This document shows, in pieces, positions 1-24,321 of a stretch of DNA of 24,321 nucleotides (its first letter is position 1; each line of letters starts with the position of its first letter). The notes below the pieces were generated by a model. It saw only the letters and a list, made by a program, of their open reading frames with translations. It was not told the origin of the DNA and did not search any database. Source of the stretch: Microcaldota archaeon (lineage in GTDB: Archaea > Micrarchaeota > Micrarchaeia > Micrarchaeales > Micrarchaeaceae); the NCBI GenBank assembly GCA_021828345.1, contig JAJZJI010000010.1, forward strand, positions 1 to 24,321, written 5' to 3'. A program made the translations under genes and the position numbers.

Positions 1-1
1 C

Positions 2-1657
2 TTAAATGGAACTAATGGCAATTATTCTATATATCAACACCAAACAATACCTATTAATGCAACAACAACAGAAAATACTACATCAGACAATATAACAATA
101 GAATTAAATAGCACACCAATAATATCTCTATTAAATTCACAGAATATAAGCATAATCCAGCAACCTAACACGACAGCACTATACAATTATACAGGAATAA
201 TAACAAATAACAACTATACGACAATAAGCCAAAGCTTTACGCTAAATACGACAACGCCATTCTATAATTTCACGCTTATACCAACATATCAATACCTATT
301 GCCTAATGCAACTTTGAACGGAACAGCCCCACAGATATTCAATCTATTAAATTATACCTATTATCTAAACGGCTCTTCATATTGGAACATTACAAATATA
401 ACAATAACATTCGCAAATAGCACTACAATATTAAATGGCTCTGGAAATACAATAAATCAAAGCTTATATAATCTATTCACAAATAATTCAATAACAAACA
501 ACACAGCAGTAATATCGGAAATAGACCAGTTCAACGACACATTAAATCTAACCCAGTATATTACAAGCACGCCATACGTATTCCCGCAGATAACAGTCCC
601 GATTATAGAAACAGATAATTTCATAAATTATACTTATACTAATATTACTTCAACGATACAGGTAAATCAATCTGGTGGAAGTTTTCCATTAAGCGGACTG
701 ACTATGTATTTCGGAGATGGAATTAATGCGACTACTTCAGCAGTAAAATTAACTCAAACTCAAATAAGCATAAACCATATCTATACAGCCAGTGCAAGCA
801 ATATAACATTATTGGCAAATCTTTCGGATATTAATTCATTTTCAGTGGAAAATTCAACGCAAATCCAGGTTCTAAATTATACAGCTCCGACAGTAGTAAT
901 GAATACCCAGCAAGGTTATATACATAACCAAAGCTATGTATTCACGGCATATAGCGGAACATTCGGATTAAGCTATGCTACGGTAATATGGGGCGATGGA
1001 AGTCAATCAAGCTATACATTTGGAGGAGCAACTGGCAAACAGGCGTTTTATTTCTACCATACTTATACAATACCGCAGACTTATGTAGTTACGGTGCAAA
1101 TATATGATATGCAGAATTTAGAATCAACATATGAATTTACGCTTCCAGTTTTATCATTTAATCCACCAGCGGTAATTTCGGTTCTGCCTAATGCTCCTTA
1201 TAATGGGGCAGATGCAGTTACCGAGACTTATGATTTCTCAATCCAGCAGGGCAGTTACCCAGTAAAAAACATAACAATATTATGGAACGACGGATATGGC
1301 AGTGTTCCAGCTACGGAAAATCAGTTTAATATAACAGGAGGTTTTAGCGTAGTGCATACATTCCCTTATTTAGATAATTTTACAATAACAACAATTATAT
1401 GCGACAATCTGGGAGACTGCAACACGCAGAATTGGGGGATAGTATTAGGATTTCCCCTGCAAAATGCAACAACACAGAATCTGGCTAATAATTTCACGCA
1501 GACGCAACTTTACATTAAAGAATTAAAAAATGAATCAGCGTTTCTGCAAAATCCGTCAAGCATAATTTATATGGTGGCGTTTTTTTCTGGAATTGGAACT
1601 TTGATAATTGCCTTGATTTTCAGGGCAAGGAAAAGAACCAAAAGAATAAGTTTATAG
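2..1657 (+). CDS. PKD/Ig-repeat surface protein, C-terminal membrane anchor (5' truncated)
   Basis: The frame is open from the first bases of the window, so the gene starts upstream and the TTG at 299 is only an internal codon. At least 551 residues are visible. Three PKD-like cores, with FGDG, WGDG and WNDG at the usual turn, lie near 712, 988 and 1288, about 95 residues apart. N-x-S/T sequons are very dense and Lys/Arg are nearly absent until the end. One hydrophobic helix near the C-terminus is followed by a basic tail (RARKRTKR), so the protein is most likely secreted with a single C-terminal anchor and a short cytosolic tail. The last repeat contains a C-D-x-x-G-x-C motif (1400-1420) also found twice in the next gene. 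PKD repeats are generally extracellular adhesion or structural modules; the specific role, whether host surface layer or virion decoration, cannot be told. Confidence 0.85.
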   Translation, partial: LNGTNGNYSIYQHQTIPINATTTENTTSDNITIELNSTPIISLLNSQNISIIQQPNTTALYNYTGIITNNNYTTISQSFTLNTTTPFYNFTLIPTYQYLLPNATLNGTAPQIFNLLNYTYYLNGSSYWNITNITITFANSTTILNGSGNTINQSLYNLFTNNSITNNTAVISEIDQFNDTLNLTQYITSTPYVFPQITVPIIETDNFINYTYTNITSTIQVNQSGGSFPLSGLTMYFGDGINATTSAVKLTQTQISINHIYTASASNITLLANLSDINSFSVENSTQIQVLNYTAPTVVMNTQQGYIHNQSYVFTAYSGTFGLSYATVIWGDGSQSSYTFGGATGKQAFYFYHTYTIPQTYVVTVQIYDMQNLESTYEFTLPVLSFNPPAVISVLPNAPYNGADAVTETYDFSIQQGSYPVKNITILWNDGYGSVPATENQFNITGGFSVVHTFPYLDNFTITTIICDNLGDCNTQNWGIVLGFPLQNATTQNLANNFTQTQLYIKELKNESAFLQNPSSIIYMVAFFSGIGTLIIALIFRARKRTKRISL

Positions 1658-1660
1658 ATA

Positions 1661-1670
1661 CTTATATATA
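1661..1670 (+). promoter_or_regulatory. Archaeal TATA box for the PKD protein operon
   Basis: CTTATATATA sits about 33-42 bases upstream of the TTG start at 1703, in a 45-base gap after a stop codon. A TATA box here would place transcription start near 1690, leaving a very short leader with a weak AGGT ribosome-binding site at 1693-1696. Inferred from position and consensus only; the surrounding DNA is itself AT-rich. Confidence 0.5.
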
Positions 1671-1702
1671 ATTTAGGTATAATATAATAGATAGGTTTTA
1701 AA

Positions 1703-2860
1703 TTGGAAAAAAGATTTTTTTTATTATTTATATTTGCATCAGTATTAGGCATAGGCATAGCGTCGGCTGGAAGTGTTACAATACTTAATAGCTCGTTATC
1801 TTCGCTTAATGCAACGCAGATAACTCCGAACTCAACATACCAATATTTAAATACCACATTCAGCGTAAATGTTTCGGATAATGTTTCATTAACAAATTAC
1901 TCTTGGTATTTCAACAATACGCTGGTAAATTCAAGCACTACAAACATAACGAATGGAACTATAAATTACACATTCAACTATAACTTTTCAGGAACTTTGC
2001 CTTTGACTTTTATAGCGAATGACACGCTAAATAATTCAGTAAATTCAACTCAAAATATTACATTTAATACCTATATTCTCCCTAAAATCTCAACGATAAC
2101 TCCTGCAAATTCAACGGTAAATGTAAGCACGATATGGCAGACAACAGGAACTGCTGGCAGTTTCCCAATAGCGAATGTAACTTGGGATATGCAGAATAAT
2201 TATTTCATAAATTTAGGATTTAATGGAGACAATTATGTGTCATACGCTTTTAATCAGTCTGGCTATTTTAACACAGTAGTCCAGATATGCGACATAAATG
2301 GATTCTGTTCGGAAAGCACTACAAATCTTTATATATCTTCAAACCAGCCGTCAAGCTATTGGGAAGTATCAAATGCGTCTCTAATAATAAATCTTAATCC
2401 GCCCAACCAGGAAATAATGACATTAACATGGATACCTATAAATGATACATATTCAATAAGTCAGGTTAATATAAACTGGGGCGATGGAAGTCCAATATCT
2501 CAAACGATATTTTCAAGTGCAGGGACTACACAATATACATTTGAGCATCAGTATTCAACAGCAGGACATTACAATGTTTCAGTAACAACTTGCGATACGC
2601 AAGGCAATTGCTTCTCGCAGTCAATAGCGACGGTAAATTATATCCAGACAGTAGTGGGAGGAGTAGGGCAACTGCTCTTCAATAATAATCCAAATATAAA
2701 TGAAGGAGATGTATTCACTAATTTGTTCAGCAATGTATTCGGCTCTGCGATAAGCACGGCAATAGGTGATATTTTATTTACAGTATTGATTGTAATAGTT
2801 TCAATATTGGTTTTATTGGTTGCTGGAATGATATTGTGGAAATACATAAATAATCTATAA
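1703..2860 (+). CDS. PKD-repeat type I membrane protein with CDxxGxC motifs
   Basis: The 385-residue product begins at TTG; an in-frame stop lies at 1688 and no ATG is available, so TTG is the best start. It has an N-terminal signal peptide (about residues 1-23, hydrophobic, ending IASAG), roughly three PKD/Ig-like repeats, and a C-terminal transmembrane helix (about 355-380) followed by a short tail. A clear WGDG core is encoded near 2479. Two repeats end in a C-D-x-x-G-x-C motif (2288-2308 and 2591-2611), where a typical PKD repeat has a D-x-x-G turn without cysteines. A disulfide staple across that hairpin is a reasonable inference. Only 14 bases separate it from the giant PKD protein downstream, so they are probably co-transcribed. 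Ectodomain sequons are abundant. Function is unknown beyond a surface or adhesion-type role. Confidence 0.85.
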   Translation: MEKRFFLLFIFASVLGIGIASAGSVTILNSSLSSLNATQITPNSTYQYLNTTFSVNVSDNVSLTNYSWYFNNTLVNSSTTNITNGTINYTFNYNFSGTLPLTFIANDTLNNSVNSTQNITFNTYILPKISTITPANSTVNVSTIWQTTGTAGSFPIANVTWDMQNNYFINLGFNGDNYVSYAFNQSGYFNTVVQICDINGFCSESTTNLYISSNQPSSYWEVSNASLIINLNPPNQEIMTLTWIPINDTYSISQVNINWGDGSPISQTIFSSAGTTQYTFEHQYSTAGHYNVSVTTCDTQGNCFSQSIATVNYIQTVVGGVGQLLFNNNPNINEGDVFTNLFSNVFGSAISTAIGDILFTVLIVIVSILVLLVAGMILWKYINNL

Positions 2861-2874
2861 TTTAAGGTAAGAGG

Positions 2875-5800
2875 ATGAACAAATTATTATTGTTTTTACC
2901 ATTGGTGTTAATTGCAGGAATAATTAGTATTAGTGGGGCATCTTATATAAGTCCTACAGGTTCAATCTGTCAATTAAGCACTATCTACGGTTCATTTACT
3001 TCTGAAATTTGTTCTTACCATAATTATAATGGAGATTATTGGGGCTATGACAGTTCAATCTCTCCTGGAACAAGCTCAAGCTCATGGAGCCAAGCTATGC
3101 AGTGGGGATTATACTGCGGAGGCGATATATCGGCAACTGCAACTTATTACTGGGGCGATGGAAGTTCAGACACAATGCAATTTAATTCTGGATTATCTGC
3201 TCTTTCATCTAAGCCTTCGCTTACGGTAACCGTAGACGGAGTGGCGATAAATAATGTGGTGTTTTGTTCTGGAAGTTTTGGCTATACGCCAGTATCAACA
3301 ACAGCTTTCTCGGCTCAATATTCATCAACTAATACAGAACAGGGTCCAAACGGAACTGAATACCTGCAATTAAACCACGAATATGCATCTACTGGGATTT
3401 ATTCTGCATATATTCATATAGTAACAGGGGGAGGGAATGGTAATACTGCAACTTTAACAAGCGTAATTATAGTAAATCCTTCTGCAAATGCCCCTACTCT
3501 AAAATACGCAACAGCAGATGCTGGCTCAACAATAACAGCGGCAAGTTCATTTACCTGCGGTTCATCTACATTATGTGCAAATGTAAATTTATATTCAAAT
3601 TCTGAAAATAACCCAAGCAGTCCTGGAGTAATAACAGCGACAAAAGCATATTCAGCAAACGGAGCATATTACCCAAGCACGACAATATACAATCCTATAA
3701 CTTCTTCAACTTATGACAGTGGGCAGACATTATTGATTATTTATCCTGATTTGGCAACGCCTTCAATATCCTTTTCGCAATCTCCGTCGGCAAGCAATGG
3801 CTATGTAACATCAGTTCAGATGACTGCTACTATAACAGTTCCACAACAGACAACAAACGGATATACAGAACAAGCCCCTTCTGGAACATTCAATTGGGGA
3901 GACGGAACTACAAGTCCGCTTTCATCGTCATCATTTTCAGCATCAGGCAGTAATTGGGTGGCTACGATTACACACACTTATTCAACTCCTAACAGTTATA
4001 CTACTTCTGTTTCGCTACAATCTTATTATTATACAAATGAGGGTTCTGCTTATGGCTCTACTTCATCTTCTTCATCATCGGTTACGATAAATGCCTATGA
4101 ATATCCAATTGTATCTATATCTCCACCATCATCAAATGTCTGCAACGGGGCAGTAAGCGGAATTTATAATGATTATCCAGGAACTTATAGTTTCAGCATT
4201 GCGACTGGTTCATACCCTGTAAGCAATCTTTATATAGAATGGGGAGGTTCAAGCAGTTCATATACTGAATACTCGACAGCAAGCACAGAATCGCATACTT
4301 ATTCAAATTCAGGTTCAAGAACAATAGACGCTTATGCAGTAGATTCAAACGGAAAAAGCGGAAGCATAGCATCATCGTCTATAAATGTAAATTCTTGGGT
4401 AGGACCAACAATTTCTTCATTAAACGCCCAATCATCAACAGCAACCCAATCGCAGACATTTTCAATTGGCATTACAAAAGGAACTTGTCCTCTAAATACT
4501 TTAACCTGGAATTGGGGCGATGGTTCTGCATCAATATCCCAGAGTGTAAGTGGTAGTGGAACTTATACAGAACCTCATACTTATCAAATGAACTCTAAAA
4601 GCGGGAGTGGAAGCGAAACAAATACTTATACATTATCTGCAACATTAACAGACAATATGGGAAATTCAGGTTCAGGTTCGGCGACAATATCAGTGTCTTA
4701 TGTATATCCGACAGTAAGCACGATAACACCTACCTCTACTTATGATACGCCAGCAGGTTCGACATATACAAATACATTCTCCACCACACTGACACAAGGA
4801 ACTAATCCTTTGGCAAATTTAAATTGGAATTTCGGAAATGGAAATACATATTCAAATGGGGCAGTAAGCGGAAGCAATAGCCAAACTAATGCCTATTCAG
4901 CGACAGGAACTTATACTGCAACAGCAGAAGCAATAGACTCGCAAGGATATTACGATATTTCATCAACTTCAATATCTGCAACAGCGTATCCAATGCCGAC
5001 TATTGGGAGTATATACATAACAAATCCAAATAACGGAACAATCACGACCAGCGTATATACTAATACTAATTTTGATTATAATGTAAATGTAACTCCAGGC
5101 GGATTTTCATTAGGCAATATTGTTTGGTATAATGGTGGAAATATAATAGCATCGGTTCAGGCAGTTAGCGGAACTAATACCTACGAATACAAGATAACTT
5201 CAGCAGGGACATATACTATTGAAGCACAAGTAAGTGATATAAATGGTGCATCGGTAAGCACATCTACAAGTGTGGTAGTAACGCTTTATTATCCCCCAGT
5301 AGTCAGCAATTTGACAATATATCCTACAACAAACTTAAACCCGCAGACAGCCAGTGGGCAGGTTAATATAGTAAATGGCATATCTACGCAGTTCAGTGTA
5401 AATCTAACGCAGGGCAATTATTCAATAGTCCAGTTGGCATGGAATTTCGGAGACGGAAATACTACGATAATAAACTCGACAACATCGCCATCGCTTAATG
5501 CAACTGGGATAAACTATATTTCGCATACTTATGCTCAGGCAGGAAGTTATATAATACAGGTGAGTGCAACTGATTCAAACGGGTTTTCTGGAAGCAACTC
5601 TACTGCAATTACAGTGTCAAATTATGCTAATGCAGTATTGTCTGGATTTACTCCGACGCAAGTGATATATAATACTTCTGTAAGTTATGGCATAACAATC
5701 CAGGAGGGTTCATTTCCAATACAGTCAGTAATATTCAGCTTTAATGGGACTAATGTATCGGTTTCAACTCCACCGACACTCGGAGGAATAGCAAATGTTG

Positions 5801-7506
5801 AATACGATTTTACGACAGCAGGAAGCTTTCCAGTAGTAGTATATGCAACCGACATATACGGAAATACAACATCAGAACAATATTCAGTATATGCCCAGCA
5901 GTTGGCACAGATAACTTATTTCAATTATGAAACCTATAATGGCAATCTATATTCAAAAGTAAATACTACATTCCAAGTAAATGTAACCGCAGGCTCGAAT
6001 CCGCTTTCAAATATGACGATGCATTTCGGAGACGGTTCAACCCCTGAATTTATTAATTTGAATAATGTATCATCAATATCGCAGGATATAAATCATATTT
6101 ATTCGCCAGGCACTTATGTGGCATATTTTACGATTACTGATTCCAATAATAATACAGAAACAAGCCAAAGCATAACATTAACTGTAGAACCTTATGTAAC
6201 CCCGCAGGTTATAAGTATAACTCCAACAACGGTATATGATGTAGTCTCAAATAATTTCTATTTTAATGTAACTAATGGCAGTTTTCCATTATCTTATATT
6301 CAAGTAAATTGGGGCGACAATTCAAGCGTAGAAAATGTAACAACAAATTCAAGCACTTATATAGCCCACACATATCCTCTGGCATCGGCGACTACTTATA
6401 ATATCCAGGCGTATGCAGTGGATATTAATAACTACGCAACTGCTTTCGGACAGAATATAACGACTTTATACCAACTTCCTACTATAAATTCAGTAAGTCC
6501 AACAAGCACTTATGCAACAGTTCCAACAAGTTTTACATTCAATGTAACTCCAGGAACTTTCTCGTTATCAACCATACAGGTAAATTTTGGTAATAATAAT
6601 ACAGTTTCACAGGCAATAACCAACCAAACCGAAGTGGTTGTCAATAATACTTATGCTTCGGCAGGAACATACCTGCTATCGGCAAGTGCAATAGACATAA
6701 ATGCCCAGCCAAGCCCCCAATTCACACAGACAATAACTGTAAATCCTTATACGCCTCCAGCGATAAGCCAGTTGTCTCCAACAAGCGTTACAGCAGGATT
6801 GAATACTACATATACCTTTACGGCACAAGCAGGAACATTCCCTCTGGCAAATTTGACTATAAACTGGGGCGATGGGCAGATAATAAATTATACTAATATA
6901 ACTAATGGATTAAATTCAATACAATTTATGTATCTATCAAACAACAGTTTTACTGTAACCGAAAAGCAATATGATACATTTGGGGTATATACAATGAATA
7001 CCTCGCTGATAACAGTTTTGGGTGCGCCATTTAATTTCAGCAGTCCAGAACCAGTAATAAATTATATTATAAGCAATAACACTCCGTCGTCAGAGTATGT
7101 CCAATTAAATCTTACATTTTTAGGAAATGCAACACTACCAGTTAATTATACTGTTCAATCAGACAATTTCATAAATTCTTATTCCTGCCAGTCAAGTATC
7201 TCGAATGCAGGGCTATTTGGAATATTCTGTGGATTGAATCCAGATGCGATAAGCTATGCCCCTGAAACATTATACGCAACGATTTACGCAACAGATACCG
7301 CAGGGATAACAAAGGCGATAACCGAAACCATAAACATAAATACAATAATAACTCCTCCGCCGATAGCTCAGCCATTTGATATGAACCTTACAGTAGCAAC
7401 TCCTTATATATTAACGCAGTATTCCCCGATAAGCTTTTATATAATTATGTTGGTTTTAGGAGTGGTAATTATTATAGGAAGTATTGTATTTTTATTATTT
7501 GGTTGA
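2875..7506 (+). CDS. Giant 1543-residue PKD-repeat surface protein
   Basis: Start ATG is preceded by an AGGTAAGAGG ribosome-binding stretch. The protein has a signal peptide (about 1-22, MNKLLLFLPLVLIAG then a small-residue cleavage zone), a Cys-containing N-terminal region, a long run of PKD-like repeats, a C-terminal module with two cysteines, and a transmembrane helix (about 1517-1541) ending almost at the C-terminus. The recurrent unit is a G-x-F/Y-P-L segment, an N-W/F-G-D/N-G core, an H-T-Y strand, a G-T/S-Y strand, a D-x-x-G turn, and a Y-x-x-P-x-I linker. Lys plus Arg total only about a dozen in the whole chain by eye. It is extracellular, probably a long fibre or adhesin, and could be a host S-layer-like stalk or a virion fibre. 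It is the largest gene in the window and sits between a shorter PKD protein and a tiny HTH gene. Confidence 0.88.
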   Translation: MNKLLLFLPLVLIAGIISISGASYISPTGSICQLSTIYGSFTSEICSYHNYNGDYWGYDSSISPGTSSSSWSQAMQWGLYCGGDISATATYYWGDGSSDTMQFNSGLSALSSKPSLTVTVDGVAINNVVFCSGSFGYTPVSTTAFSAQYSSTNTEQGPNGTEYLQLNHEYASTGIYSAYIHIVTGGGNGNTATLTSVIIVNPSANAPTLKYATADAGSTITAASSFTCGSSTLCANVNLYSNSENNPSSPGVITATKAYSANGAYYPSTTIYNPITSSTYDSGQTLLIIYPDLATPSISFSQSPSASNGYVTSVQMTATITVPQQTTNGYTEQAPSGTFNWGDGTTSPLSSSSFSASGSNWVATITHTYSTPNSYTTSVSLQSYYYTNEGSAYGSTSSSSSSVTINAYEYPIVSISPPSSNVCNGAVSGIYNDYPGTYSFSIATGSYPVSNLYIEWGGSSSSYTEYSTASTESHTYSNSGSRTIDAYAVDSNGKSGSIASSSINVNSWVGPTISSLNAQSSTATQSQTFSIGITKGTCPLNTLTWNWGDGSASISQSVSGSGTYTEPHTYQMNSKSGSGSETNTYTLSATLTDNMGNSGSGSATISVSYVYPTVSTITPTSTYDTPAGSTYTNTFSTTLTQGTNPLANLNWNFGNGNTYSNGAVSGSNSQTNAYSATGTYTATAEAIDSQGYYDISSTSISATAYPMPTIGSIYITNPNNGTITTSVYTNTNFDYNVNVTPGGFSLGNIVWYNGGNIIASVQAVSGTNTYEYKITSAGTYTIEAQVSDINGASVSTSTSVVVTLYYPPVVSNLTIYPTTNLNPQTASGQVNIVNGISTQFSVNLTQGNYSIVQLAWNFGDGNTTIINSTTSPSLNATGINYISHTYAQAGSYIIQVSATDSNGFSGSNSTAITVSNYANAVLSGFTPTQVIYNTSVSYGITIQEGSFPIQSVIFSFNGTNVSVSTPPTLGGIANVEYDFTTAGSFPVVVYATDIYGNTTSEQYSVYAQQLAQITYFNYETYNGNLYSKVNTTFQVNVTAGSNPLSNMTMHFGDGSTPEFINLNNVSSISQDINHIYSPGTYVAYFTITDSNNNTETSQSITLTVEPYVTPQVISITPTTVYDVVSNNFYFNVTNGSFPLSYIQVNWGDNSSVENVTTNSSTYIAHTYPLASATTYNIQAYAVDINNYATAFGQNITTLYQLPTINSVSPTSTYATVPTSFTFNVTPGTFSLSTIQVNFGNNNTVSQAITNQTEVVVNNTYASAGTYLLSASAIDINAQPSPQFTQTITVNPYTPPAISQLSPTSVTAGLNTTYTFTAQAGTFPLANLTINWGDGQIINYTNITNGLNSIQFMYLSNNSFTVTEKQYDTFGVYTMNTSLITVLGAPFNFSSPEPVINYIISNNTPSSEYVQLNLTFLGNATLPVNYTVQSDNFINSYSCQSSISNAGLFGIFCGLNPDAISYAPETLYATIYATDTAGITKAITETININTIITPPPIAQPFDMNLTVATPYILTQYSPISFYIIMLVLGVVIIIGSIVFLLFG
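3145..6880 (+). repeat. Array of about twelve PKD-like repeats within the giant protein
   Basis: Cores resembling W/F-G-D/N-G are encoded near 3150, 3895, 4240, 4513, 4830, 5122, 5443, 5740, 6024, 6308, 6585 and 6862 (residues about 92, 341, 456, 547, 653, 750, 857, 956, 1051, 1145, 1237, 1330). From 4240 onward spacing is 273-321 bases, or 91-107 residues. The repeats are diverged at DNA level, so this is an old protein-domain array and not a fresh tandem duplication. The gap between the first two cores probably contains one or two further Ig-like domains lacking the core motif. Confidence 0.75.
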
Positions 7507-7510
7507 TTGA

Positions 7511-7683: not shown

Positions 7684-7700
7684 GAAGCCAATAGTAGGGG

Positions 7701-7733: not shown

Positions 7734-7742
7734 GTGAATTAA

Positions 7743-8189: not shown

Positions 8190-8222
8190 GCAATTAATCT
8201 AAAAAATTAAAAAGTGATAAAA

Positions 8223-16621: not shown

Positions 16622-16622
16622 T

Positions 16623-16943: not shown

Positions 16944-16965
16944 AAATAATAAAAAAAGGATAAAC

Positions 16966-18117
16966 ATGAACAAAACAAAATTAGCAATGATAGGCATAAT
17001 ACCATTCCTGCTTTTATTCGGAATGGCAAGTGCGCAAAGTATTTTAGTTCCAAATAGCATTTATGCGAATAGCACATTTCCAATAGCCATTTCTGGTCTT
17101 CCAAGCCCAAATAATACGATTGGAATGATAATGGTTGATGTTGCAGGAAATAGTTATCCAGTTGTATATACAAATACTACTGCAACTACATTCGGTTTTA
17201 TAAACTCAATAGGTAATTATACAATAACAGCATCAGAATTTGTGAATAATTCTACTTCGCAAATAGCTTCAATAAATATATCTGTATTGGCTAATCCAAG
17301 TGATGTAATCCAAGCTAATTTAACACAATACGAAGCGAATACATCAGCAGATTTATTTAATCTAACAAATTCAACAAATAATAGCATAACTGCATTTAAT
17401 ACAACTTTATATAACCTTACAAATTCAACAAGTAATAGCATAAATACCTTCAATTCAACATTAGGGAACATAAATTCTGAAATATCTTCTATAAACTTAA
17501 CAAGCACAAGTGCAATAAGTTCTATAAATGGGCAGATAGGAAATATAAATGGACAGATAAATAACATAAATACTGCATTATCAAATCAAGCACAGGTATT
17601 GACAGGCATAAATTCAACAATACTCCAGCAGGCAAATACTACTGCAAGTGGTATAGCAAATTTGAATACCTTGATTCAGGATTTGTCAAATGGCACAAGC
17701 CAGAACTTCAAAGAAACCAATCTATATGTAGATGGAGCTTATATAATAGGCATTTTAGGCATTGCAATAGGCATAGTATCAATACTATTCTTTTCAAACA
17801 AACCGAATAAACCTAAAACAGACCCAATAAAGCAAATATTAATCCAAGAAACAAAAGAGGAACAGAAAGAAAAAAACAAGACAAAGGAAAACGCAGAAAA
17901 ACTAAAAGAATTTGAAGAAAAGAAAAAGCAGGCAAAAGAAGAGGGAACAATAGAATATATAAAGGAAAGAATGAAGAAAGACAGGGAATTTAATAAATTA
18001 AAGAAATTATATGAAAATACAAAAAAGAAATATCCAGAAACATATAAAGAAGCTCCAGAAACAAAAGCTCTGATTGAGTATGTAAAACAAGTATATAATC
18101 AGGATATAACTGTTTAG
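16966..18117 (+). CDS. 383-residue stalk protein with extracellular and cytosolic coiled coils
   Basis: Domains in order: signal peptide (about 1-23, ending GMASA), an Ig-like head (about 25-110), a heptad-like Asn/Ser/Ile-rich stalk (about 120-250) containing two near-identical 18-residue units, a transmembrane helix (about 260-281), and a highly charged Lys/Glu-rich cytosolic coiled coil (about 290-380). The stalk has regular Ile/Leu every three to four residues and many sequons, so an oligomeric fibre is likely. The large charged internal tail is unlike the other surface proteins here, which have only a few internal residues. It could link an outer spike to an inner layer. Ribosome-binding site AAGGA precedes ATG. 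Confidence 0.82.
   Translation: MNKTKLAMIGIIPFLLLFGMASAQSILVPNSIYANSTFPIAISGLPSPNNTIGMIMVDVAGNSYPVVYTNTTATTFGFINSIGNYTITASEFVNNSTSQIASINISVLANPSDVIQANLTQYEANTSADLFNLTNSTNNSITAFNTTLYNLTNSTSNSINTFNSTLGNINSEISSINLTSTSAISSINGQIGNINGQINNINTALSNQAQVLTGINSTILQQANTTASGIANLNTLIQDLSNGTSQNFKETNLYVDGAYIIGILGIAIGIVSILFFSNKPNKPKTDPIKQILIQETKEEQKEKNKTKENAEKLKEFEEKKKQAKEEGTIEYIKERMKKDREFNKLKKLYENTKKKYPETYKEAPETKALIEYVKQVYNQDITV
17359..17466. repeat. Two 54-bp units encoding 18-residue stalk repeats
   Basis: Units 17359-17412 and 17413-17466 encode residues 132-149 and 150-167. Both read N-L-T-N-S-T-x-N-S-I-x-x-F-N-x-T-L and each has several N-glycosylation sequons. Further degenerate units follow (I-N-x-x-I-x-x-I-N), consistent with stalk growth by tandem duplication. 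Confidence 0.75.
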
Positions 18118-18126
18118 GAGGGTAAT

Positions 18127-18915
18127 ATGAGTTTTAAACAAAAAGTTAAAATGCCTGCGATAATATTCGCAATTTTAGGCGTAATTTTAATAGCATCGGC
18201 AATAGTGTCAATGCTTCCTTTATTTTCCCAGCCTACGCCTATTGCGACATATAATTTTATAAAAACTAACTTTAATGCAACTGCAATAAATACAACATTA
18301 AGCCCGCAGATAATAACAATAAATTCAACAATACCAATACAGAACTATACAACGATAGTGTTCCCTAATGGCACATATCTATATTATTTCGGTGCAAAAT
18401 TCTGCCCATTTTGTGCGTCATCTGGCTACGCTATATATAGTATATCACATAACTATACAATTCCAGCATATAACACAAATTTCTATAATGCGGAAGGAAA
18501 TGTTCCAGCAATCCCAGTAAACCAGATAGCAAGTGGAAGCATAAATGGCATAAATGCAATGTATCTATATGAGAATCCGATAAGCACAATAGAACTGCAA
18601 GATGAACCTTCATATCAAATAGCCAATCTAACGGCAAACTGGGAAAGGAGTCTGCCGCCAACGGCGTTATATCTGTTTGCAATGCACTCCAGTTATCCTG
18701 ATTTATATGTAGTGAATACAAACGGTTCAAAAACAACAATATGCAATGCTTATCAAGGTATAAATATATACGATTATAACCAGACGACAATGAAGGCATT
18801 AAGTGAAAATTTCAATACCGAAGGACTGCCACTGAACAGTGTGATACCAGATACCAATAATATGGAACAGGAACAGAGTTTAATATATGATTGTATACAA
18901 GCATACAAGAAATAA
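18127..18915 (+). CDS. DUF929-like thioredoxin-fold membrane protein with CPFC motif
   Basis: A strong GGAGGG site precedes ATG. Residues about 9-32 form a signal anchor; the rest is extracytoplasmic, with several sequons. F-G-A-K-F-C-P-F-C-A (88-97; Cys93 and Cys96) is a thioredoxin-like CxxC site and matches the G-A-x-x-C-P-Y-C-A pattern I associate with DUF929 proteins of Sulfolobales and Thermoplasmata. Two more cysteines (206 and 256) could form a structural disulfide. It would act outside the membrane as a thiol-disulfide oxidoreductase. Upstream secreted proteins carry paired cysteines, so they are plausible substrates. The family assignment is from memory of the motif. Confidence 0.75.
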   Translation: MSFKQKVKMPAIIFAILGVILIASAIVSMLPLFSQPTPIATYNFIKTNFNATAINTTLSPQIITINSTIPIQNYTTIVFPNGTYLYYFGAKFCPFCASSGYAIYSISHNYTIPAYNTNFYNAEGNVPAIPVNQIASGSINGINAMYLYENPISTIELQDEPSYQIANLTANWERSLPPTALYLFAMHSSYPDLYVVNTNGSKTTICNAYQGINIYDYNQTTMKALSENFNTEGLPLNSVIPDTNNMEQEQSLIYDCIQAYKK

Positions 18916-18924
18916 AGTGATAAA

Positions 18925-19098
18925 ATGGAGGAGAATAAAAAAAAGTTAGGAATACTGCACGACTCATATAAAACAGAATATAAAGACGGATTTGCTACTT
19001 ATAAATGTGGGCAATTCCACGATGGCATAATGCTAATTACAGGAAATCGAAAGGAAATAAGAAAGCATATAATGCAAGTTCATTATGGCTATAGGTGA
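18925..19098 (+). CDS. 57-residue small basic protein
   Basis: ATG 18925 follows AGTGATAAA, the standard ribosome-binding pattern of this window, ten bases after the DUF929-like gene. The product is charged, with a Y-K-C-G-Q-F-H segment (about 26-32) and two His further on (48, 53), which could bind a metal but form no recognised finger. It is the first of the DNA-metabolism-side genes. Supported by start signal, composition and spacing. Confidence 0.55.
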   Translation: MEENKKKLGILHDSYKTEYKDGFATYKCGQFHDGIMLITGNRKEIRKHIMQVHYGYR

Positions 19099-19102
19099 TA
19101 TA

Positions 19103-19276
19103 GTGAACGAAAAAACAAAGGAATTTATAAAAGATAAAAAAATATTAGTAGTGCATAATCCAACAGAAGTAGAATTAAAGGAATTTTATGGCGAAGGATA
19201 TATCCCAAAAAGTATGAAGTTTGTAGAAGGAGGACTGTCAATAACGATAATTCTAAAAAAATTAAAAAGAGAGTGA
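19103..19276 (+). CDS. 57-residue small cytosolic protein
   Basis: Two starts are possible: ATG 19085, which overlaps the previous gene by 14 bases and has no ribosome-binding site, and GTG 19103, preceded by GGTGA at 19094-19098. I prefer 19103. The product is Lys/Glu-rich with a beta-alpha-beta feel (K-I-L-V-V-H-N-P, then L-S-I-T-I-I-L-K-K). No motif recognised. Next gene follows five bases after its stop. Confidence 0.55.
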   Translation: MNEKTKEFIKDKKILVVHNPTEVELKEFYGEGYIPKSMKFVEGGLSITIILKKLKRE

Positions 19277-19281
19277 GATTT

Positions 19282-19929
19282 ATGGATGATATAAAAATAA
19301 TGAAGGCAAGTGAACTTGAATTAAAGGAAATTGATGAGAAATACAGTAAAGCTACATTTGAGAAATATATTGGAACTATTCCAGTAAAAATAGACCAAGA
19401 CAAAGTGCTTCAAGCAGAGAAAGAATGGTTTGAGGAAAATGTTCAAAAATCAAGATGGCTGGAAAAAGCAAAATTAGGCATATTGAATAAAGACGATTTT
19501 CAGAATATCGGTGGAAAACAATTTATCAAGAAATCTGGAGTTAAAAAACTGGCTAATGCGTTCCATATAAGTGTAAGTATATTAGAAACTGAAGAGCATA
19601 TAATAGATTGGGGTTCAACTCCGCAGAAGACTGAAAGAGGAATAATAATGACACCATCAGGTAAAGAGCTTATAATCAAGGTAAAAGCAAGAGCAGAAAG
19701 GAGGATAATGATAACCGACAAGGAAACTGGCAAGACCTTTGATGTAGTAGTAGATACAGTAGAAGATATAGGGGCTTGTAGTTCAACAGAATTAGCAACA
19801 AAGAAAGGGCAAGCATACAATTATCACAACCTCTATACAACTGCTGCGACGAGGGCTACAAACAGAAGTATAATGAACTGTATTGGTGGGTCTGTAACTG
19901 CAGAGGAAGTGGATGCAGATATGGGTTGA
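19282..19929 (+). CDS. Rad52-type single-strand annealing protein candidate
   Basis: ATG 19282 is preferred to in-frame GTG 19273. Of 215 residues, about 76-94 (I-G-G-K-Q-F-I-K-K-S-G-V-K-K-L-A-N-A-F) and about 181-210 (Y-H-N-L-Y-T-T-A-A-T-R-A-T-N-R, I-G-G, T-A-E-E-V) follow a pattern I know from archaeal and phage-associated proteins related to Rad52-like annealases: a G-K-x-F-x-x-K-S/T-G-x-x-K-x-A motif, a beta-rich centre, and an A-x-T-R-A-x-N-R helix. These proteins anneal complementary single strands during recombination. The next gene is a RecB/Cas4-type nuclease, the usual partner. Family call is by pattern and context. Confidence 0.75.
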   Translation: MDDIKIMKASELELKEIDEKYSKATFEKYIGTIPVKIDQDKVLQAEKEWFEENVQKSRWLEKAKLGILNKDDFQNIGGKQFIKKSGVKKLANAFHISVSILETEEHIIDWGSTPQKTERGIIMTPSGKELIIKVKARAERRIMITDKETGKTFDVVVDTVEDIGACSSTELATKKGQAYNYHNLYTTAATRATNRSIMNCIGGSVTAEEVDADMG

Positions 19930-19933
19930 TTAA

Positions 19934-20704
19934 TTGATAGTCGAGCTTATAGAAAAAGGAATTAATGAAATAGATTCCTCGCCAGATAAAGTCAAGAAAG
20001 AAGGAGTATATTACATAAGCGAGGCATCGAAATGTGTAAGGCAAGCATATTATTCCTATTTTGAGAAACCAAAATACAATATAGAGACTTTAAAGGCATT
20101 TGGAATAGGAGAGGCATTACATACATTAGTCCAGAAAGCATTTGAAGCCAATAAGGATTATGAAGTAAAAAATGAAGTTCCAAATTTATATTATATTGAT
20201 AAATTGGCAAATCTTGAAATTCACGGAAGATTAGACACTATAATAACGAATAAAAAAACAGGAAAAATAGATATAATCGAGATAAAATCAATAGCAAATC
20301 CTAAATACGCTCCAATCAAGGAACATTATGAGCAGTTAAATTATTATTTATATTTTTATAAGGAGGCAGAAGGGCATTTATTATATGTAAACAAAACAAA
20401 AAAAATGCAATTGGATAATGATTATGTAACTTTTAAAGAAATACCAAAGGAAGGGGATAATCCAATAAAATTTGATGAAGTATTATTCACTTATGTATTA
20501 AATCGAATACGGATTTTACACGATTATGTAATTAGAAAAAAACTGCCTTATCCAGAAGCCAAGCTGTCAAGTGATATGTATTGGGCATGTGGATATTGTC
20601 CGTATAGGCAAAAATGCGACAGGGAGGAAAATGAGAATATTATAGGCAAGAAAGAATATGCAGAAATAGCAAAGAAATATGAAAATAAAGTTGTAGGTGA
20701 TTGA
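19934..20704 (+). CDS. Cas4/RecB-like PD-(D/E)XK nuclease with Fe-S cysteines
   Basis: Starts at TTG 19934, four bases after the previous stop; no ATG is in frame nearby. Of 256 residues, His63 (G-E-A-L-H), Asp101 (H-G-R-L-D), Glu116-x-Lys118 (I-I-E-I-K) and Gln134 (Q-L-N-Y-Y) are the ordered catalytic set of RecB-family nucleases. Cys34 together with Cys219, Cys222 and Cys228 (C-G-Y-C-P-Y-R-Q-K-C) match the split four-cysteine 4Fe-4S arrangement of Cas4 and AddB. It should resect DNA ends to give single strands for the annealing protein just upstream. No cas1, cas2 or CRISPR repeat is nearby, so a recombination role is more likely than spacer acquisition. Confidence 0.88.
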   Translation: MIVELIEKGINEIDSSPDKVKKEGVYYISEASKCVRQAYYSYFEKPKYNIETLKAFGIGEALHTLVQKAFEANKDYEVKNEVPNLYYIDKLANLEIHGRLDTIITNKKTGKIDIIEIKSIANPKYAPIKEHYEQLNYYLYFYKEAEGHLLYVNKTKKMQLDNDYVTFKEIPKEGDNPIKFDEVLFTYVLNRIRILHDYVIRKKLPYPEAKLSSDMYWACGYCPYRQKCDREENENIIGKKEYAEIAKKYENKVVGD

Positions 20705-21151
20705 TTGGGGTCTCCAGATTGGGAAGATTTATACGAAAAATTTATTGAGCCAGAAGTGGAACGCTCTACAAAAGATTACCAGATATATTTTAAAAAAGGC
20801 GTAGGTGAGAATCAGTTGCATAATTTAATATTCAATATGCAGTATAATTATAGACAAAGAAAGGGATATAAAACTAAAAATCCACAAAAGGATATACATA
20901 AGTTAAGCATAGTAAAGAACTCAAATAAAATGTTGCCTTATGTCCAGGCAAAGTTAATCCAGGACAAGAAAGTAATCAAATATCAATATAAAGAAAAGGA
21001 AATCATACGCAATAATGTCAAATGGACTGATGAGGAGATTAAAACTGTGTTCACTTTAAAAGAACAAGGAATGCCTATAAAATCTATTGCAAAAAGATTA
21101 GGGCGAAGTTATGCTTCAATATATAATAAATTGAAGAAGGTAATAAAATGA
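20705..21151 (+). CDS. 148-residue protein with C-terminal helix-turn-helix
   Basis: TTG 20705 directly follows the nuclease stop. The N-terminal two thirds are basic and helical. Residues about 105-146 (V-K-W-T-D-E-E-I, L-K-E-Q-G-M-P-I-K-S-I-A-K-R-L-G-R-S-Y) form a Myb/SANT-like or resolvase-type helix-turn-helix: W-T-x-E-E-I opener and I-A-K-R-L-G-R-S turn. Likely DNA binding, as a regulator or a nuclease-module accessory. The end overlaps the OB-fold gene by four bases. Confidence 0.75.
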   Translation: MGSPDWEDLYEKFIEPEVERSTKDYQIYFKKGVGENQLHNLIFNMQYNYRQRKGYKTKNPQKDIHKLSIVKNSNKMLPYVQAKLIQDKKVIKYQYKEKEIIRNNVKWTDEEIKTVFTLKEQGMPIKSIAKRLGRSYASIYNKLKKVIK

Positions 21152-21447
21152 CCGAATTAAAAAAAATAACAGAGATAAAGGAAAATGAGAATGTCAAAAT
21201 CGAGGGAATAGCAATGGAGGTATTTGAAGCCCAAGATTTAGTTAAGAAAAGTGGAGAGAGAATAGGAATGCAGGAAATTCTTGTAGTAGACGATACAGGG
21301 GAATCGATAATATTAAAATTATGGGGTAAAGACATAAATACTATAAAGCTAAATGACAAAATAAGAGCAGAATGTTTTGTAGGAAAATTTAAGGATAATC
21401 TATATTTATCAAAAGGAAAATACGGAAAGATAGAAAAAATTAAGTGA
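21148..21447 (+). CDS. Short OB-fold protein, RPA/SSB-like
   Basis: A 99-residue single domain started by an ATGA overlap. The strand order N-V-K-I-E-G-I-A, I-L-V-V-D-D-T-G-E, I-I-L-K-L-W-G, then L-N-D-K-I-R-A-E and L-Y-L-S-K-G-K-Y-G is that of an archaeal RPA/SSB OB fold, including the D-D-T-G turn and L-x-L-W-G strand. Probably binds single-stranded DNA, supporting the annealing and nuclease proteins or the primase. It has no acidic C-terminal tail of the bacterial SSB kind and no zinc finger. Confidence 0.78.
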   Translation: MTELKKITEIKENENVKIEGIAMEVFEAQDLVKKSGERIGMQEILVVDDTGESIILKLWGKDINTIKLNDKIRAECFVGKFKDNLYLSKGKYGKIEKIK

Positions 21448-21451
21448 GTGA

Positions 21452-21688
21452 ATGCACAAAAACAAAAAGGAAATTCCAGAAAACGAGAAGGACGGAATAG
21501 AAATAGAAGGTATAGCTATATCTGATAAATCCTTTAAAATAGTTAAATGCCCTGCAAATCATAATGTATATGTGGCAGATTGTTATCCAGAAACTTATAC
21601 TAAATTAGTTTGCCAGGAATGTAAAATAAAAGGAGTCAGATATAAATATCCTATTAAAAAAGATATAAGACAGGAAACAATATTGTGA
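21452..21688 (+). CDS. 78-residue zinc-finger-like protein
   Basis: ATG 21452 follows GTGAGTGA. Cys33, His37, Cys44, Cys54 and Cys57 (K-C-P-A-N-H, A-D-C, V-C-Q-E-C) give a plausible zinc site. Small and charged, located between the OB-fold and primase-like genes. It might be an accessory zinc domain split from a replication protein; no family recognised. Confidence 0.68.
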   Translation: MHKNKKEIPENEKDGIEIEGIAISDKSFKIVKCPANHNVYVADCYPETYTKLVCQECKIKGVRYKYPIKKDIRQETIL

Positions 21689-21695
21689 TGATTGA

Positions 21696-22334
21696 ATGTA
21701 TATTATCCCTAATAGCCAATTTAGGCAGTATAAAATGAGAAAGGGAGATAAATGGTTTATCCTAAATAAAAAAATAAGGAGGGATAACCAGCTTTTAGAA
21801 TATATGCTTAAAATCCAGCCCACTGATGTTTATCAGACAGTTTCTTATTGGCTAAATCCGACCAGATTAGGAAGCAAGAAATTTAATAGCCCAAAATATA
21901 CTGGTGATAAAAAAATCATAAAAGGCGCAAAGTTGTCGCATTTTTTGGCTAATCTTTTTTTGGGTAGTGATTATATAATGGATTTTGATGATAAGGACTA
22001 TACGAATGGGCAGGATGAAAGTAGAAGCAATTTGCAGTTAGCTAAATTAAAATTACAAGAACTTGGATTCAAGGAATTTCTTTCCTTAAGAACTGGCAGA
22101 GGTTATCAGTTATTGGTTATGGATTTCAATGAATGGGCAAAAAAGGATATGAAAGCAGTAATGCCGAGAGACAGGGAGGAATTTTATCTCTTAAAAATGA
22201 GAAAACTTACAAAAATATTATTGGATGCAAAAATAAAATGGGATTATAAAGTAAGCATAGATACGAGAAGAATATTTAGAGTTCCGAATACATTGCATAA
22301 TAATGGGAATATAGTAAGGATATTAAAGGAATAA
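21696..22334 (+). CDS. Archaeo-eukaryotic primase (PriS-like) catalytic domain
   Basis: ATG 21696 is fixed by an in-frame stop just before it. Asp96 and Asp98 (I-M-D-F-D-D) are motif I. L-R-T-G-R-G-Y-Q (131-138) occupies motif II, where S-x-H is usual. Asp189 with R-R-I-F-R-V-P-N-T-L-H (191-201) is motif III and the following conserved basic segment. At 212 residues it is shorter than cellular PriS (about 330-380), and the zinc-binding stem is not seen. The motif II His is replaced by Gln138, which would alter nucleotide binding. It is therefore either a minimal primase or a remodelled nucleotidyltransferase. Neighbouring OB-fold, Zn and PCNA genes support a replication role. No PriL is visible. 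Confidence 0.8.
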   Translation: MYIIPNSQFRQYKMRKGDKWFILNKKIRRDNQLLEYMLKIQPTDVYQTVSYWLNPTRLGSKKFNSPKYTGDKKIIKGAKLSHFLANLFLGSDYIMDFDDKDYTNGQDESRSNLQLAKLKLQELGFKEFLSLRTGRGYQLLVMDFNEWAKKDMKAVMPRDREEFYLLKMRKLTKILLDAKIKWDYKVSIDTRRIFRVPNTLHNNGNIVRILKE

Positions 22335-22338
22335 TTTG

Positions 22339-22375
22339 CTATAAAATAAATATAGAGATATTAACATGATAATAT
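22339..22375 (+). promoter_or_regulatory. Promoter for the PCNA-side operon
   Basis: CTATAAAATAAATATA (22339-22354) is TATA-like and falls in the only gap of this region. An inverted repeat ATATTA (22358-22363)/TAATAT (22370-22375) lies at the expected start site. The gene starts at ATG 22374, so the transcript would be nearly leaderless. Consensus and position only. Confidence 0.42.
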
Positions 22376-22595
22376 GGCTATTATAGTAGATTTGGAAAGA
22401 AAGAAAATAATAAAAACAAAACGAGCAGATGAATGTGAATATGGAAAATTCATTATCAACGAGGAGGAAATTTTCGTAAAATACGAGCAGATTAATATGA
22501 ACGAGAATGAATTAAAGAAAAGAATAATTGAGATTATACATACTTATGACGGATTAATTGAGCCGAAAGGCAATGATAATGGTCGTCCTATTTAG
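22374..22595 (+). CDS. 73-residue soluble protein of unknown function
   Basis: ATG 22374, stop TAG 22593-22595. The product is charged, with an N-terminal beta pair (A-I-I-V-D-L) and a C-terminal amphipathic helix (E-L-K-K-R-I-I-E-I-I). Its stop codon forms the left edge of the structured RNA candidate. I see no motif. Confidence 0.62.
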   Translation: MAIIVDLERKKIIKTKRADECEYGKFIINEEEIFVKYEQINMNENELKKRIIEIIHTYDGLIEPKGNDNGRPI

Positions 22596-22650
22596 CTGGG
22601 GCTGAAGCGAATGGCTGAAATGCTATTCAGCGTCATAAGCATCCCCAGTT
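22594..22650 (+). ncRNA. Structured RNA element with mutually exclusive hairpins
   Basis: AGCTGGGG (22594-22601) pairs with CCCCAGTT (22643-22650), an 8-bp closing stem with one G-T pair. Inside, GCTGAA (22614-22619) pairs with TTCAGC (22626-22631). Alternatively GAATGGC (22609-22615) pairs with GCTATTC (22622-22628). These two cannot form together, and GCTGAA is also repeated at 22601-22606. G+C is about half here against about a third around it, and it is the only non-coding stretch of its kind. It ends four bases before the GGTGA (22654-22658) of the next gene. It could be a cis-acting leader switch or a small RNA; no tRNA, C/D or clear H/ACA signature. Confidence 0.5.
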
Positions 22651-22662
22651 TATGGTGAATAC

Positions 22663-23028
22663 ATGGAAAATATAAAAATGGAAATAAAAATAGAAGTGCC
22701 TAAAAAAATCGTTATCCATAACATAACAAAAATGGATATATCTGGTTTGCTAAAGTCTGTAAGGACGCCAGCAGGGACAATGCCTTTAATGTGGGCAAAG
22801 GGATATGCTTTTGTAGTAAATGCGCTACCTTTACAAGGCAAGGCATTAGAATTATATATTGAAGGAGAACTACATTATACCGATATAATATTCAGCAAGA
22901 TGGAAGACTACAAGGAGGTAGTAGAAGCGGATATTGATTTGAAGGCGAATGTATTTGATATGTCAAAATCAGCAATTCATAATGCAATGGCTGATGCTAT
23001 TAAGCAATATGATGCTTTAATTTTGTGA
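22663..23028 (+). CDS. 121-residue soluble protein of unknown function
   Basis: ATG 22663 follows GGTGA just after the RNA structure. Mixed alpha/beta: N-terminal strands (M-E-I-K-I-E-V-P), a G-T-M-P-L-M-W-A-K-G-Y segment (about 38-48), and a C-terminal helix. No signal or membrane helix. Its position beneath a structured leader suggests regulated expression. Not recognised. Confidence 0.72.
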   Translation: MENIKMEIKIEVPKKIVIHNITKMDISGLLKSVRTPAGTMPLMWAKGYAFVVNALPLQGKALELYIEGELHYTDIIFSKMEDYKEVVEADIDLKANVFDMSKSAIHNAMADAIKQYDALIL

Positions 23029-23032
23029 TAAA

Positions 23033-23281
23033 ATGCCTGTTCTGCAAATTTATTTAGATGATAAAGAATACAATAGATTTAGGAATATAGCAAAAAAAAG
23101 AGGAATTTCGGCAAGGAAATACGCTTATAAACTATTATTCAGAAGGGCTAATTCAGAACTTGATAAAGATATGATAGCGGAAATCAGAGCAGTTTATGTA
23201 AGCAATAAAAACAAAGCATATATAATAAAAGAATATAGAATAAGTAGATATAAATTGAATAAAATAATCAATGGTGTATAA
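23033..23281 (+). CDS. 82-residue ribbon-helix-helix-like DNA-binding protein
   Basis: ATG 23033 follows GTGATAAA. Residues 1-36 (V-L-Q-I-Y-L-D-D-K-E-Y, then A-K-K-R-G-I-S-A-R-K-Y-A-Y-K-L-L) fit strand-helix-turn-helix of CopG/RHH proteins. Residues about 58-80 (Y-I-I-K-E-Y-R-I-S-R-Y-K-L-N-K-I) look like an extra helix-turn-helix resembling that of the 43-residue protein at 7511. Probable transcriptional regulator or plasmid copy/partition factor, two bases before PCNA. Confidence 0.7.
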   Translation: MPVLQIYLDDKEYNRFRNIAKKRGISARKYAYKLLFRRANSELDKDMIAEIRAVYVSNKNKAYIIKEYRISRYKLNKIINGV

Positions 23282-23283
23282 AA

Positions 23284-23997
23284 ATGGAAATAAGAATAGA
23301 GGATGCAAGGTATTTTGGGGCGTGTATAGAAACAGTGTCTTTATTAGTAGAAGAAGCCAATATGCAATTTTTAAATGAAGGTATTGAGATTGTGGCTATG
23401 GATTCTTCTGCAATAGCTTTAATTGAATTTAATCTTCCAAACAAGGTATTTTCAAAATACGATGTCTTGGATGAGAAATTAGGGATTAATTTTAAGGATT
23501 TGAATAAGATAATGTCAAGGGCAAGAGAAGACGAATCATTAGTTTTAAAGAAAGATAAAGATAAATTGAATGTAATTTTCTTAAAAGATAAATCCCAAAG
23601 GAAATACAAAATAAATCTAATACAATTAGATAAAGAAGTTAAAAAATTAAAGCCAAAGGCTGAAATTGAGGTTAAAGTGGCACAATCTGAATTTTTAAAT
23701 GTTTTAAAGAATACTGCATTAGTGGCAGAATATCTGCAATTTAAAACCGATAAAAATAAGCTTATGATTTATGGCAATGGTTCATACGCAGAAGTAGAAA
23801 GCGATTTTATAGATATAGATAGCAAGAATGAGATTAAAGTAATGTTTAATCTTAAATATTTACTTGCTATGGCTTCAAAAGCAGACAAGGACTCGGAGAT
23901 TAAATTAACTCTGGCAAACAATGAACCTCTATCATTAAATTATAATATAAGAGATGCCAGTATAAAGTTCGTATTAGCTCCTTATATGAATGAGTGA
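23284..23997 (+). CDS. pcn: PCNA sliding clamp
   Basis: The 237 residues are near the usual archaeal length (about 245-250). G-I-E-I-V-A-M-D-S-S-A-I-A-L-I-E-F (33-49) is the PCNA signature, followed by L-P and F-S-K-Y-D. An interdomain connecting region follows near 115-125. The C-terminal domain ends Y-N-I-R-D-A-S-I-K-F-V-L-A-P-Y-M, matching the canonical L-A-P end that binds clients. It forms a ring that tethers polymerase, ligase, nuclease and FEN1 to DNA. The sequence is diverged, as expected for an element-encoded copy. No polymerase is present in the window, so it may capture host replication proteins. Start ATG follows GGTGTATAAAA. Confidence 0.92.
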   Translation: MEIRIEDARYFGACIETVSLLVEEANMQFLNEGIEIVAMDSSAIALIEFNLPNKVFSKYDVLDEKLGINFKDLNKIMSRAREDESLVLKKDKDKLNVIFLKDKSQRKYKINLIQLDKEVKKLKPKAEIEVKVAQSEFLNVLKNTALVAEYLQFKTDKNKLMIYGNGSYAEVESDFIDIDSKNEIKVMFNLKYLLAMASKADKDSEIKLTLANNEPLSLNYNIRDASIKFVLAPYMNE

Positions 23998-24001
23998 GTA
24001 T

Positions 24002-24169
24002 ATGAAAGAAATATCAAAAGCAATAAGCCATCTGGCAAGAGCTAAAGCAATAGAAGATGCTATATTGTATGTAGATTATCTAAACAAGAATTTTAGTCTT
24101 AATTTAAGGAAAAATCCAAAGGACATAATAAGCATAGCAAGGGAATTTACAAAATTCATAGAGGAGTAA
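24002..24169 (+). CDS. 55-residue small helical protein
   Basis: ATG 24002 comes four bases after PCNA, preceded by GTGAGTAT. Helical and Lys/Ala-rich (A-I-S-H-L-A-R-A-K-A-I-E-D-A-I), no motif recognised. Stop 24167-24169 abuts the next ATG. Supported by start signal and operon spacing. Confidence 0.55.
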   Translation: MKEISKAISHLARAKAIEDAILYVDYLNKNFSLNLRKNPKDIISIAREFTKFIEE

Positions 24170-24321
24170 ATGGAACACAAAAACATAAAGCTGGAATTGG
24201 AAGGAAAAAAGTATGATATTGAATATAAACGAACCCAGAGTGTTCTTTACTTTAACGATAAGAATGGAGCAAGCATAGGTTTTGTTAAGGACAAAGGTAG
24301 ATTAAGCGTTTTCGTAAATGA
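24170..24321 (+). CDS. Small soluble protein, 3' truncated by window end
   Basis: ATG 24170 immediately follows the previous stop, with GAGGAG as ribosome-binding site. Fifty codons are open to the end of the window with no stop in frame. The visible part is beta-rich and charged (L-E-L-E-G-K-K-Y-D-I-E-Y). Not recognised. Confidence 0.5.
   Translation, partial: MEHKNIKLELEGKKYDIEYKRTQSVLYFNDKNGASIGFVKDKGRLSVFVN

Follow-up and report, generated by a model that had tools for sequence, protein, structure and literature searches.

The 24,321-nucleotide stretch considered here (contig JAJZJI010000010.1 of the Microcaldota archaeon assembly GCA_021828345.1, order Micrarchaeales; henceforth the window) is read by us as about 24 kb of an extrachromosomal micrarchaeal mobile element, most likely an undescribed virus with a membrane virion covered by anchored surface proteins. 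We assign this reading as a whole a probability of roughly 0.45, and place the odds that the element is a virus at about even. A viral nature is favored by the viral company of a predicted annealing protein, by a modular gene order on one strand and by the uneven distribution of the two modules, namely a surface and membrane block and, after it on the same strand, a replication and recombination block.

Among the 77 open reading frames (ORFs) of at least 50 residues listed in the window, 33 were accepted as genes by length and packing, with no gene finder, and all lie on the plus strand, to which every coordinate below refers. The first and last are truncated by the window ends, and the minus-strand ORFs, none exceeding 122 residues, were set aside; one further plus-strand ORF of 43 residues (7511–7642), resembling a helix-turn-helix (HTH) protein, was added to the 33. 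These 33 cover 97.3% of the bases, overlap at 11 of their 32 junctions and are separated at most by 236 nt. The original prediction had counted 31 tightly packed genes on a single strand; strand and packing hold, and the count is now 33 plus the 43-residue ORF. Its division of the window into a surface and membrane run followed by a recombination and replication set is borne out by a split in hydrophobicity at 18925 (a hydrophobic segment occurs in 15 of the 19 ORFs of 2–18915 and in none of the 14 from 18925 onward) and by Pfam matches for PCNA, an OB fold and a PD-(D/E)XK nuclease, the primase and annealase being weaker calls. Scans of the window found neither a tRNA nor an Rfam family at the gathering threshold.

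A PCNA that points to Micrarchaeota

The replication block encodes a PCNA sliding clamp (23284–23997), recognized by the Pfam models PCNA_N (7.5e-15; 55.2 bits against a cut-off of 20.3) and PCNA_C (27.6 bits against 23), with NCBIfam clamp models matching under their cut-offs. A search with this protein recovered 21 proteins: three at 99–100% identity, four at 48–52%, five at 36–37% (one of them from a metagenome-assembled genome (MAG) of Marsarchaeota), eight at 31–32% (four bearing the name Thermococci or Thermococcus) and a single one at 23%. The exact window PCNA is present on 13 contigs, and a near-identical one sits on a contig of 40,473 bp, the longest of the related contigs; the window is therefore probably partial, a fragment of a larger element. 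The first and last 400 bases, compared as the original prediction had suggested for circularity or terminal repeats, have no 12-mer in common, so that there is no terminal repeat and circularity is not indicated.

In a 43-row tree, five element PCNAs and 23 cellular PCNAs form a 28-row clade (support 99/96), which includes the branch of Micrarchaeum A_DKE, presumably an acidophile, and leaves out six other rows of the same cellular group. A topology test on 32 rows rejected the separation of cellular from element PCNAs at p ~0.03, a value to be read in the light of its two tests being nearly one split, of the group having been named after the tree was seen and of the long branch of the window row. 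A scan of genomes for PCNA gave 53 loci, 43 of them labeled Micrarchaeota, Micrarchaeum or Micrarchaeaceae, two Marsarchaeota, one ‘archaeon’ and seven others; its query alignment was led by the 36–37% group and is hence biased toward it. Taken together, these comparisons of sequence point to a micrarchaeal ancestry of the window PCNA. Since Thermoplasmatales PCNAs are absent from the tree, the host is only inferred, and we regard a micrarchaeal one as probable.

Two further observations concern PCNA in this phylum. The PCNAs of two MAGs labeled Marsarchaeota, FK_Sedi_B_Bin.316 (L014:7666–8409) and FK_Sedi_B_Bin.344 (L021:10001–10756), fall inside the Micrarchaeota clade, and these labels may be wrong. 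In addition, a 345-residue protein (genome G183; L196:9264–10301) appears by eye to fuse an N-terminal HTH-like segment to a divergent PCNA, in a chromosomal setting in Micrarchaeota near genes resembling a type I restriction-modification system.

Annealing, nuclease and priming proteins

Upstream of the clamp, 19273–19929 probably encodes a 218-residue Rad52-like single-strand annealing protein of the Rad52/Sak type, a weaker call than those for PCNA, the OB fold and the Cas4-like nuclease. Pfam, PHROG and NCBIfam gave it nothing better than E 0.01, and the phrog_7821 ‘virion structural’ match at E 0.01 was taken as chance. The call comes from a low-confidence structural model that has Rad52, Sak and Mgm101 among its best structural alignments. 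A Foldseek search of this model against PDB returned no hit at E ≤0.001, a Rad52 chain ranking second at E 0.03; against viral models, two hits reached E ≤0.001 (an uncharacterized protein of a Caudovirales phage and an unnamed one), and entries for RecT and ERF ranked lower, at E 0.02–0.25.

The next gene (19934–20704) encodes a Cas4-like PD-(D/E)XK nuclease (PDDEXK_1 2.6e-11, 44.4 bits against a cut-off of 22; phrog_1706 3e-26), with GRLD..EIK and the cysteine cluster C...CxxCxxxxxC in its translation. The model of the CRISPR-associated Cas4 (NCBIfam TIGR00372) gave 34.7 of the required 65 bits, which marks the protein as a relative and not as a CRISPR Cas4. It is followed by an HTH DNA-binding protein (20705–21151; HTH_38 2.9e-7, and the PHROG scan) and an RPA-like OB-fold protein of 99 residues predicted to bind single-stranded DNA (21148–21447; REPA_OB_2 8e-8 in Pfam, NCBIfam models under their cut-offs).

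The ORF at 21696–22334 is predicted to be the catalytic core of a PriS-like primase of 212 residues, likewise a weaker call than PCNA, the OB fold and Cas4. The NCBIfam PriS model matches it at E 0.0001, far under its cut-off, and the profile of its family (23 proteins found) matches PriS chains in PDB, the best at 31 bits. The metal-binding DxD of motif I is kept in all 19 rows of the family alignment, and RR..R is also conserved. A histidine in motif II is a feature of PriS and of the archaeo-eukaryotic primases (AEPs) at large, and is visible as GRGYH in the PriS structure 9f26; at this position 18 of the 19 rows, the window protein included (residue 138), have glutamine and one has histidine. 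Among 301 Micrarchaeota genomes, the family profile finds matches in 22, of which eight score 44–90 bits and 14 score 18–27 bits. In one of two such matches inspected (L055), a 426-residue primase lies between ORFs that by eye resemble glutamine synthetase and UppS.

The surface and membrane module

The first three genes encode related surface proteins, each with a C-terminal transmembrane (TM) segment: a 5′-truncated PKD-like protein (2–1657; PKD 0.0027, under the Pfam cut-off), a protein with a hydrophobic N terminus (1703–2860; PKD 7.5e-7) and a giant multi-PKD protein of 1543 residues with a signal-like N terminus (2875–7506; PKD_4 9.3e-19, four stretches). PKD thus exceeds the Pfam cut-off in two of the three. 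N-glycosylation sequons reach 7.3 per 100 residues among the surface proteins, the maximum being in the truncated one. Lysine and arginine together make up 0.8–2.9% of seven surface proteins, 3.8% of the protein at 18127–18915 and 8.4% of that at 16966–18117.

Hydrophobicity similarly indicates a C-terminally anchored protein (7743–8189) that is a paralogue (32% over 75 residues, 4.7e-7) of a surface protein with a signal-like N terminus and a C-terminal TM segment (8888–9613). Between the two lie a 97-residue protein with a signal-like segment and a single C-terminal TM segment (8214–8507), a candidate virion membrane protein, and a 121-residue protein rich in proline, glycine and asparagine and devoid of TM segments (8508–8873). 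There follow a 65-residue TM protein (9704–9901), a 494-residue surface protein with a signal-like N terminus and a C-terminal TM segment (9898–11382), a polytopic membrane protein with five hydrophobic segments (11383–11892) and a 708-residue protein carrying hydrophobic segments at its N and C termini (11892–14018).

The 212-residue membrane protein at 14074–14712 belongs to a rare family, of which five proteins were found including that of the window. Across the 301 Micrarchaeota genomes it has no real match: the one candidate, in G301, spans 24 residues at 19 bits with an internal stop, is out of frame with the 401-residue ORF at whose start it lies, and was dismissed as chance. A predicted structure of the family (predicted local distance difference test score 49) was useless. 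Six small membrane or soluble proteins follow (14709–18117), among them one with a TM segment and a charged tail (16966–18117), whose gene contains a tandem repeat of two 54-nt copies, 83% alike (17352–17459). The block closes with an N-terminally anchored protein bearing an FCPFC motif (18127–18915), which we take to be thiol-redox-like and to resemble the DUF929 thioredoxin-like family; no profile matches it above cut-off.

Virus, plasmid or chromosomal island

The viral company of the annealase consists of relatives in two archaeal tailed viruses, vir080, where some 3 kb separate the gene from one for a helicase, and the Methanobrevibacter virus vir075, together with at least one distant relative in IMG/VR, on a 71-kb contig. 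PCNA too is carried by viruses (two haloviruses and one Methanomicrobiales virus). The finding of 23 primase proteins and five of the 14074 family fits a mosaic element, although unequal rates of change could explain it too.

Several results weigh against the reading that we prefer. On the viral side, a Pfam scan of 30 of the 34 ORFs and a PHROG scan of 20 turned up no profile of a capsid, packaging ATPase, terminase or integrase protein, in agreement with the original observation that no packaging ATPase or integrase is seen. IMG/VR yielded no relatives of the PCNA, Cas4-like, primase or 14074 proteins in pattern-based scans, which need short exact patterns; no match was found to the Cas4-like protein in phage records, to the 14074 protein in plasmids or to the primase in either; and the annealase's company was drawn from viral collections alone. 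On the host side, 287 Micrarchaeota spacers gave no near-full-length match to the window; the GC content of the window (33.2%) is lower than that of all but three of 39 comparison loci; the primase profile matched none of the nine genomes of a first test set, Micrarchaeum A_DKE included; and the searches for the annealase and the 708-residue protein, each with 0 of 301 Micrarchaeota genomes matched, had no positive control for either query.

The same Pfam and PHROG scans gave no significant match to HK97 capsid, portal, terminase or tail genes, and PHROGs attached only weak tail or virion labels (E 0.003–0.03), of which the tail labels, on the ORFs at 7743, 8508, 16154 and 16966, likely reflect low complexity. 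If the 40,473-bp contig is the same element, 16 kb of it lie outside the window, and missing capsid genes would then say little. Of the earlier suggestion of an undescribed archaeal virus or large mobile element, what stands is a mobile element with surface and replication modules that matches a known element in none of the collections searched; the virus half has gained no hallmark above cut-off.

The absence of virion hallmarks from the window scans, and the lack of relatives in IMG/VR for four of the five proteins tried, would equally suit a non-viral extrachromosomal plasmid of Micrarchaeota, which would carry its own replication set, alter the host surface with PKD adhesins and spread by cell contact or vesicles; PCNA genes are indeed found on archaeal plasmids (12 records). 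This alternative, already allowed for in the original prediction, is kept as a serious if doubtful rival. It is countered by the lack of a relaxase or VirB4/TraG-type conjugation ATPase above cut-off in the Pfam scans and by the viral identity of the annealase relatives found, albeit in a search of viral collections.

Integration into a micrarchaeal chromosome, as a genomic island or as a provirus, appears quite improbable. In its favor, the ends of the element lie outside the window, and large secreted proteins are abundant in the genomes of Micrarchaeota. Against it, the frames are open and tightly packed, and a conserved host island, which the original prediction had entertained, is unlikely because the annealase and the 708-residue protein are matched in none of the 301 genomes. 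Of the 164 genomes of this order that were searched for PCNA, 147 gave a match, and among the matches listed none exceeds 40% identity. Seven genomes have two such matches (G119, G133, G143, G183, G192, G260 and G261), those of G143, G260 and G261 looking like split genes. Nor did the 301 genomes reveal housekeeping flanks in synteny among hosts, the observation that had been named as a refutation of the virus or mobile-element reading. At the DNA level, positions 4322–24321, the part searched, gave matches at E ≤0.01 in 83 of these genomes; the best is the PCNA gene itself (71%, G168), and the remaining matches listed, of 22–147 nt at 68–100%, are not convincing, with two candidates scored per genome, so that protospacers could escape.

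The host could also be another archaeon of the same habitat, for example one of the Thermoplasmatales, with the PCNA acquired earlier from Micrarchaeota, which we consider unlikely. No MAG contains the element, the PCNA tree records the ancestry of a single gene with no Thermoplasmatales among its rows, and no spacer provides a link. The spacers come only from ground near cas1: Cas1 was matched in 37 of 301 genomes, and the 36 that remained after omission of G202 (under the cut-off) supplied 37 stretches, 15 of which contained 16 arrays in all, with 287 spacers (284 distinct) and poorly set repeat ends in one array, L130. The best score, 28.2 bits over 14–22 nt, was a tie of five real spacers and one reversed. 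Against such a host, the cellular PCNAs placed in Micrarchaeota by the tree score 138–148 bits with the window PCNA alone as query, as opposed to 112 for the best of Thermococci; the best micrarchaeal match of the primase profile scores 90 bits, as opposed to 31 for the best PriS chain in PDB; and tetranucleotide composition trends toward micrarchaeal loci, its correlation with the window being 0.23–0.58 for 39 loci (36 labeled Micrarchaeota, two Marsarchaeota and one ‘archaeon’) and 0.05–0.24 for five other archaeal loci, after loci below 10 kb were dropped.

A proposed life cycle and its parallels

Returning to a micrarchaeal virus, we propose that the OB-fold protein would coat single strands, the PriS-like enzyme would prime or extend them, and the element's own PCNA might recruit the polymerase and ligase of the host. 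The Cas4-like nuclease could resect ends that the Rad52-like protein would anneal, and from these two activities we propose recombination-dependent copying. HTH and ribbon-helix-helix proteins may switch operons. The PKD proteins, poor in lysine and arginine and rich in glycosylation sites, would project from a host-derived envelope, held by their C-terminal anchors, and serve as spikes or adhesins; this virion step is the least certain. Tentatively, the element could represent a new family of Micrarchaeota viruses, combining an enveloped virion with giant PKD glycoproteins, a host-captured clamp and a minimal PriS-like enzyme that lacks the motif-II histidine and perhaps starts or extends strands in an unusual manner.

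The rudivirus SIRV2 has an operon of genes for a single-stranded DNA-binding protein, an annealing protein and a Cas4 nuclease; the corresponding genes are neighbors in the window too (a likeness of gene content), which in addition has the PriS-like primase and PCNA. The primase resembles archaeal PriS and AEPs in its conserved DxD and RR..R and its profile match to PriS structures, but differs in consisting, at 212 residues, of the core only and in its motif-II glutamine. With vir080 and vir075 the window has the Rad52-like annealase family in common, but their records are of Caudoviricetes with an integrase, and the window has no recognized tail, portal, terminase or integrase gene. Pleomorphic and spindle-shaped archaeal viruses have virions made largely of membrane-anchored proteins, as is proposed for the window, although none of their proteins was matched in the Pfam and PHROG scans made.

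Burstein 2017 is said to have linked a small circular sequence to ARMAN-1 through Cas9 spacers, and Comolli 2009 is reportedly a microscopy study of ARMAN. Passages of the literature note viral infection of some DPANN archaea (PMC6349945, citing Comolli 2009), the recruitment of Cas4 by archaeal viruses (PMC5704561) and 41 Micrarchaeota populations among the predicted hosts of viruses from acid mine drainage sediments (PMC9061769); a passage on the AMDV viruses connects them with Leptospirillum and with ‘-plasma’ archaea rather than with ARMAN (PMC2745766). In the literature searched, titles and the opening lines of abstracts, subscription papers excepted, contain no description of such an element. 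A Micrarchaeota-derived PCNA on a genome fragment, with exact copies on other contigs, would supply marker genes for counting the element, and a primase with glutamine in motif II is a variant worth assaying.

Regulatory sequences and remaining genes

The widest non-coding gap holds the 43-residue ORF, a candidate regulator whose HTH was read by eye, and just 3′ of it three copies of GTCCGAT (7656–7683), spaced by 10 and 11 bp. The window has four copies in all, against 1.05 expected for a pattern that was picked post hoc. This cluster lies ahead of a TATA-box-like TTTATATA (7701–7708), about 35 nt upstream of the ORF at 7743, and the ensemble looks like a promoter with a helically phased operator or, alternatively, like iterons. 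A second TTTATATA (9666–9673) lies 30 nt upstream of the ORF at 9704. Both are candidate promoters by position, which is the sole argument for them, as the sequence is not enriched in the window (12 copies against 10.1 expected).

The remaining genes of the replication block are small: two charged ORFs of 57 and 63 residues at its start (18925–19276), a cysteine-containing ORF of 78 residues (21452–21688), two ORFs of 73 and 121 residues without assignment (22374–23028) and, past the clamp, two more, the second truncated by the window end (23990–24321). Immediately before the clamp, 23033–23281 may encode a ribbon-helix-helix regulator, with matches to RHH_1 (0.0034) and to a NikA-like family, both under the Pfam cut-off.

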